DNA of 64,000 nucleotides from an uncultured Muribaculaceae bacterium (GTDB taxonomy: Bacteria > Bacteroidota > Bacteroidia > Bacteroidales > Muribaculaceae): contig CALUMG010000006.1 of assembly GCA_944321705.1 (NCBI GenBank), forward strand, positions 124,001 through 188,000, in the 5' to 3' direction. The position numbers were made by a program, and so were the translations under genes. Shown one piece after another: positions 61,185 to 61,329 of this stretch (position 1 is its first letter; the number at the start of each line of letters is the position of its first letter). Under the pieces are notes generated by a model, which was not told the DNA's origin, did no database searches, and saw nothing but the letters and a program-made list of their open reading frames with translations.

Positions 61185-61207
61185 GTCTGTGAGTCCCAAC
61201 CTCAGAC
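61185..61207 (-). other. Small hairpin directly after the 5S rRNA 3' end
   Basis: On the minus strand GTCTG pairs with CAGAC around a 13-base interior with partial pairing. It follows the 5S sequence by a few bases but has no U run, so it may be a processing or weak termination signal, or chance. Confidence 0.3.
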
Positions 61208-61317
61208 CTTGGCGACACTTACTCTCCCACTTGTGCAGTACCATCAGCGTATATAGTCTTAACTTCTCTGTTCGGAATGGGAAGAGGTGATTCCTATATA
61301 CTATAGTCACCGTTGCT
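61207..61317 (-). rRNA. rrf: Orphan 5S ribosomal RNA (A+U-rich variant)
   Basis: The minus strand contains the universal 5S core: CCCATTCCGAACAGAGAAG, GATGGTACTGC and GTGGGAGAGTA. The ends pair as helix I (GGTGAC, complement of 61306-61311, with GTCGCC, complement of 61211-61216). Helix II, normally G+C-rich in the phylum, is GTATATAG paired with CTATATAC, eight unbroken pairs. Outer limits are uncertain by several bases; the core is about 101 bases. No 16S, 23S or tRNA gene is adjacent. The gene begins about 13 bases after the stop codon of the WG-repeat gene on the same strand. Conservation of pairing suggests a functional or recently functional RNA rather than a random decayed copy. Confidence 0.85.
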
Positions 61318-61329
61318 AAATTTTATACT

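Follow-up and report, generated by a model that had tools for sequence, protein, structure and literature searches.

Organization of the locus

Toward the end of the analysed DNA (the window, meaning the whole stretch of 64 kb from a Muribaculaceae genome), the features of interest follow one another on the minus strand. They begin with the 3′ end of a MobV-type relaxase gene (63942..64000, continuing beyond the window on contig C6; L038 12945-13670), followed by an ORF of 812 aa that we refer to as cargo gene X (61330..63768; C-terminal tail YERDTYYALGGDDYD..NGG..DDMMD..G, stop TAG), an orphan 5S rRNA gene with an A+U-rich helix II (61207..61314), and an ORF of 122 codons plus TAA that contains five in-frame TAG codons (60764..61132; hereafter the amber ORF). 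An inverted repeat without assigned strand (CGTATGGCGAT/ATCGCCATACG, 60681..60706), which is also present in L036, forms a terminator-like end of this unit. Beyond it, the start of a short ORF (MQ..AIGTVANSLP.NKVIL.., 60421..60564, minus strand) marks the end of a block that is shared with another genus; the same short ORF follows the cargo in L075, a Bacteroidaceae MAG, and in G002, a genome of the window's genus.

The original prediction, made from the letters alone, had described a complete 5S gene with a fully complementary, A+U-rich helix II and with no 16S, 23S or tRNA gene nearby, and each of these points held in the follow-up. RF00001 was the sole RNA family detected by a covariance search (cmscan) of the 64-kb window (61314..61207, minus strand), where it matched over its full length (model positions 1-120) at 64.9 bits (E 2.3e-11; the gathering score is 38). 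All helices are intact, helix II being formed by GUAUAUAG/CUAUAUAC, and the loops are conserved. Genes for tRNA, 16S and 23S are absent across the 64 kb, and the DNA upstream of the orphan 5S contains neither rrn similarity nor a 23S relic. A comparison with the other 5S copies of the genome had also been proposed. The host genome (a draft of 2.56 Mb in 30 contigs, 99.8% complete) carries a single further 5S (C27:14131-14239, 79.7 bits), which has a G+C-rich helix II and an adjacent 23S, and the sequence of the orphan is strongly unlike it. The A+U-rich stem is therefore not common to all 5S genes of the genome, and the copy with a 23S beside it is the other one.

Compensatory changes are seen across seven 5S sequences. 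Helix II, for instance, reads GUAUAUAG/CUAUAUAC in the window and GUAUACAG/CUGUAUAC in the genome G212, and standard pairs occupy 87.7% of helix cells in the combined orphan and rrn copies. Covariation reached 0.213, compared with 0.146 in shuffled alignments (0/500) and 0.06-0.11 in slid controls. These comparisons show that structural selection acts on the orphan 5S. The gene is also of foreign origin, and both points agree with what had been proposed.

A variable cargo slot behind mobV

The block shared with the other genus (4251 nt, 99.7% identity, with an identical 5S) runs from window position 60421 to inside mobV, occupying 60421..64000 on the minus strand and continuing past the window end. 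These ~4.25 kb comprise the mobV relaxase gene, cargo gene X, the 5S and the 3′ unit. The relaxase is 38.5% identical over 99% to the annotated MobV of pBUN1 and has several homologues in the family. In the mobilizable element on pBUN1, the genes are ordered int-int-primase-toprim-mobV and are followed by a beta-lactamase gene. The locus resembles the MobV integrative mobilizable elements of Bacteroides in having a MobV relaxase followed by a cargo slot, but it differs in the cargo itself, which here consists of X, the amber-interrupted gene and, between them, the orphan 5S. Because contig C6 breaks off within mobV, no integrase is seen for this copy; one end of the element can be recognised from the shared boundary. 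In G002, different cargo fills the space from mobV to the end ORF and a 5S is absent, and further relatives carry yet other genes there. The slot includes, in another species of the genus, a gene (L210:1955-3046) that appears by eye to be DarT-like (ADP-ribosyltransferase).

The 5S and ~500-550 nt 3′ of it are conserved in L075 and G212, where they stand behind different genes, namely one for a 351-aa protein (L075) and one for a 683-aa protein that shares only the C-terminal region of X (G212). Judged from these sequences, the 5S travels with the DNA 3′ of it and not with X, and the module has moved between genera. It is also rare. Among 247 genomes of the family, the 5S of G077 is 100% identical to the window copy and that of G212 matches it at 88% over 104 nt. 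When 85,000 species genomes were scanned for 5S genes of this kind, 109 copies came up, of which only those in L075, G077 and G212 are orphans with flanking sequence; the remaining copies are 23S-linked or lie at contig edges.

An isolated 5S near a contig end could also be the scar of a rearranged rrn operon, a recombination or attachment site, or the product of a chimeric assembly, all of which had been raised in the original prediction. We regard these origins as extremely unlikely. The missing 23S relic and the strong dissimilarity from the host's rrn 5S speak against a scar, and the position of the 5S, ~0.8 kb inside the shared block and away from its edge, speaks against an attachment or recombination site. 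Since an independently assembled genome has the same junctions at a different place in its chromosome, and diverged versions are found in two more genomes, misassembly is excluded in practice. A 5S-derived regulatory RNA, also named in the original prediction, is conceivable.

Cargo gene X ends in its TAG stop at 61332-61330, and the 5S begins 15 nt further on, on the same strand. The earlier suggestion of a 5S behind a foreign gene, plausibly on its transcript, is supported. The description of the preceding gene as a WG-repeat gene is not, as no Pfam WG match was found at E values up to 1. X was assigned to no Pfam, NCBIfam or PADLOC family, and the PADLOC defence models returned nothing for X of the window or for its counterpart in L075; single-sequence structure prediction was uninformative (pLDDT 31). 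A full-length homologue, 44% identical and lacking a 5S, is present in G200, and X terminates at the same residue as a homologue that uses TAA. If its TAG stop were read through, X would run into the 5S as far as a TAA inside it (within 61332-61207), gaining ~35-40 residues; this extension is not conserved in G212, where the stop is TAA.

Signs of protein-level selection on the amber ORF

The most unusual part of the locus, absent from the original prediction, is the conserved TAG-interrupted gene that starts 75 nt after the 5S. The spacing from 5S to ATG is ~73-79 nt across diverged homologues. In the window the frame reads MKQMILFCV[TAG]IREFISKRILPTLRKATADE[TAG]LRVCTISLIVTTLSIHPQLGFMGYGCIIVDGYSLYTSQ[TAG]RSELL[TAG]W[TAG]SAVSILSISLTVCGMFVFPQFALLLGITSVMLDFVMLIYTIIVR, followed by TAA; its TAG codons lie at 61105-61103, 61042-61040, 60925-60923, 60907-60905 and 60901-60899 (minus strand), and it contains no internal TAA or TGA. 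The L075 version has three TAG codons and a final TGA, the G212 version four TAG codons and a final TAA, and the remaining forward frames contain TAA and/or TGA. A whole-genome HMM search that read through stops gave three strong matches, in which the only stops were '5 TAG', '5 TAG' and '4 TAG'. The homologues comprise three distinct versions (two deep branches) from four genomes.

From the first TAG onward, an alignment of the window with G212 covers 339 nt and needs no gap (60% nucleotide identity), with 55, 32 and 60 substitutions at codon positions 1, 2 and 3, respectively. In all three pairs of versions, dN/dS lies at 0.33-0.38 (about 0.36). The amino-acid similarity (BLOSUM) of 293 compares with 83 ± 29 in column shuffles (0/2000), and among the six frames only the amber frame stands out (z 6.5; next best 2.8). 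Tested one at a time, all segments between TAGs reach significance, among them segment 2 (p 0.004) and segment 3a (p <0.0002), and the segments keep fixed lengths (20 and 44 codons) and a single frame in diverged homologues. Because each segment is selected and segment 2 of the window offers no ATG, GTG or TTG (in segment 3a, TTG is the sole candidate start), the selected product spans the TAGs. Taken together, these patterns show that the amber ORF encodes a protein and that purifying selection acts on it from end to end.

The TAGs preceding segment 2, segment 3 and a Trp codon are kept in 3/3 versions, and at the other TAG positions a relative has CAG (Gln) or AAG/AAA (Lys) instead. Codon 10, the first TAG, lies in the 5′ base of a hairpin (61060..61114, minus strand; z -2.7 in the window). 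This hairpin is conserved, and the later TAGs have none of this kind. A 9-codon leader that ends in a hairpin resembles translational attenuators, and the inter-TAG stretches could accordingly be separate micro-ORFs of a polycistronic leader, acting by attenuation or as a type I toxin-like message that needs no read-through. Segments 3b and 4 indeed have internal ATG or GTG starts, and small hydrophobic peptides resemble type I toxins. We nevertheless consider this explanation distinctly unlikely, since segments 2 and 3a are protein-selected even though the former has no usual start and the latter only TTG. Moreover, independent ORFs need not share one frame and fixed lengths, as these segments do, and the internal stops are exclusively TAG.

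With an amino acid placed at each TAG, the amber product contains hydrophobic segments and is predicted to be all-helical (low-confidence model, mean pLDDT 49). These features suggest a small membrane protein and would fit a membrane effector. The searches assigned the protein to no functional family. Relatives of it were found in neither phages nor plasmids, and order-wide samples yielded nothing beyond weak, chance-like matches. Viral contigs contained no match to the 5S pattern, X or the amber protein; because the generic Bacteroidota 5S core also gave zero matches there, rRNA-bearing contigs may have been removed from this collection.

Decoding of UAG in the host

Several observations indicate that UAG is a stop codon in this host, though a rare one. 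RF1 is present. A CTA anticodon occurs in 0 of 52 host tRNA matches, all of which have ordinary anticodons, in a draft genome from which a tRNA may be missing, and no suppressor tRNA (CTA) was detected in the scanned stretches of related elements. TAG terminates 2 of 38 long ORFs in the window, one of them X (1 of the 37 others), and both X and mobV end in TAG. Given RF1 and the absence of a detected suppressor tRNA, we would expect only the 9-residue leader to be made and the amber gene to be off. Where the host terminates at UAG, a protein-selected gene with several conserved UAG codons should not be found, unless suppression is frequent enough to matter. If selection requires the full protein, suppression must happen at times.

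Reassignment of UAG to Gln (code 15) has been validated by proteomics in two crAss-like phages, late in infection (PMC9523058), and alternative coding is known from Lak phages of Prevotella (PMC8346664). The amber ORF resembles the TAG-to-Gln genes of crAss-like and Lak phages in its in-frame TAGs that alternate with CAG and in its association with Bacteroidales hosts. It differs from them in that it resides on a chromosomal element of a host in which RF1 is present and no suppressor was detected, that TAG serves as the stop codon of X and mobV on the same element, and that its TAGs are conserved in position.

Orphan 5S genes on a Prevotella element and a Bacteroides phage

Searches of a plasmid and a phage collection revealed two further orphan 5S genes next to TAG-broken frames. 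The first (L041:5001-5112) belongs to a CTnDOT-like element of Prevotella nigrescens F0103, with traK-traO upstream of the 5S and mobB/mobC and traG on the same record; this 5S is missing from the plasmid gene table. The frame that starts 68 nt after it reads MNTNNVFRK[TAG]VIDLSKKLSQSLKRFITNKKVMIIFTNIIPLIIGLINLKASIIVTAIIMCY[TAG]LYNSKNGTD, then TAA. The second (L039:7976-8086) lies in the Bacteroides phage LoVEphage, next to the frame MKNLIRKSIL[TAG]LYYRTAMAMLKIE[TAG]TVGWDFVLNCVDLL[TAG]WLIEKII[TAG]YS, then TAA. This short phage frame lacks a hydrophobic segment and stands before the 5S instead of after it, ending 10 nt upstream. A strong inverted repeat lies 3′ of this 5S, which carries an rRNA annotation in one record and an overlapping CDS call in another.

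The first TAG occupies codon 9-11 in 5/5 loci, each time within a hairpin base (z -2.3 to -3.7). The combined feature, which was defined after seeing these loci, turned up once behind 104 rrn-linked 5S genes used as controls, and shuffled sequences showed it in 0-1% of cases. Outside the 5S, the Prevotella and phage cases have no sequence homology to the first three loci. Given this and the post hoc definition, the two cases are supporting and not decisive, and their TAG-broken frames are suggestive only.

Some other leads were set aside. The motif AGGTTGGGAC near three 5S copies was dropped, as in the phage it lies within the TAG frame, upstream of the 5S. A match of 36 nt between the phage region and crAssphage cr52_1 was dismissed as A+T-rich DNA, and those plasmid 5S matches that we inspected (Segatella, Clostridioides and others) look rrn-linked and are not orphans.

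A possible trap for recoding phages

Our best guess, a hypothesis built on firm sequence facts, is that the mobV slot of an integrative mobilizable element of Bacteroidales holds a cargo module (variable gene X, 5S, TAG-interrupted membrane-protein gene, terminator) whose membrane protein needs UAG suppression and perhaps serves as a trap for TAG-recoding phages. We would give this reading a probability of roughly 40%. Decoding of UAG as an amino acid would switch the amber gene on. Several TAGs would multiply the barrier against leaky expression, which would suit a harmful product. The likeliest decoder would be a TAG-to-Gln recoding phage (crAss-like or Lak) that infects this host group, and the membrane protein, once made, would damage the infected cell and so stop the phage. 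This analysis linked no phage or suppressor tRNA to these hosts. A more specific version, in which the module acts as a genetic-code sensor, with a silent, lethal membrane protein written with UAG, a phage suppressor tRNA that triggers early host death, and a 5S that preserves the message or aids read-through, appears rather doubtful to us.

Hok-like type I toxin-antitoxin systems and Abi membrane effectors likewise combine a small hydrophobic protein, a short leader ORF and a structured message on a mobile element. The amber gene differs from them in that its expression is apparently barred by multiple in-frame TAGs. We found no paper on 5S genes on such elements, nor on amber-interrupted trap genes. 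If phage recoding does lift the stops, this would be, as far as is known, the first defence to sense a change of genetic code. It would amount to a price paid by recoding phages and would provide a testable context for the role of orphan 5S genes on mobile elements.

The trap does not explain the 5S, whose role stands outside the idea itself. In the least demanding and likeliest proposal, which is a guess, the 5S would form a stable folded transcript boundary that protects X and/or the downstream message. It is also conceivable, though somewhat unlikely, that the 5S and the amber gene are mere neighbours, the former being a stray copy (functional or decaying) that hitchhikes with the flanking DNA. 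Orphan 5S genes are rare here, no mechanism calls for one, the G200 homologue of X does without it, and the 5S is otherwise ordinary, with conserved loops. A chance association would, however, have to account for the near-constant spacing to the ATG in diverged homologues and the similar 68 nt in the unrelated Prevotella ICE, for the joint occurrence of 5S and TAG frame behind different cargo genes, and for helices that are maintained through compensatory changes.

Conversely, the 5S might take an active part by entering ribosomes and loosening termination, so that UAG is read through and the module supplies its own recoding factor. It would fit this idea that orphan 5S genes and TAG-interrupted frames are found together on three kinds of mobile element, and some 5S mutants of yeast (position 91) act as nonsense suppressors (PMC3614586). 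We judge it very improbable. No loop base change relative to the rrn 5S was found to be common to all five orphan 5S genes, loosened termination would be a very inefficient way past five stops, and a single extra 5S copy would compete with the rrn 5S.

One further observation concerns the cargo proteins. The C-terminal tail of X (YERDTYYALGGDDYD....NGG..DDMMD..G; window 61330-61430) recurs in large, otherwise dissimilar proteins of G212, G137, G194 and G110 and looks like a tag common to them all; the acidic tail of a 970-aa cargo protein in L216 is comparable.
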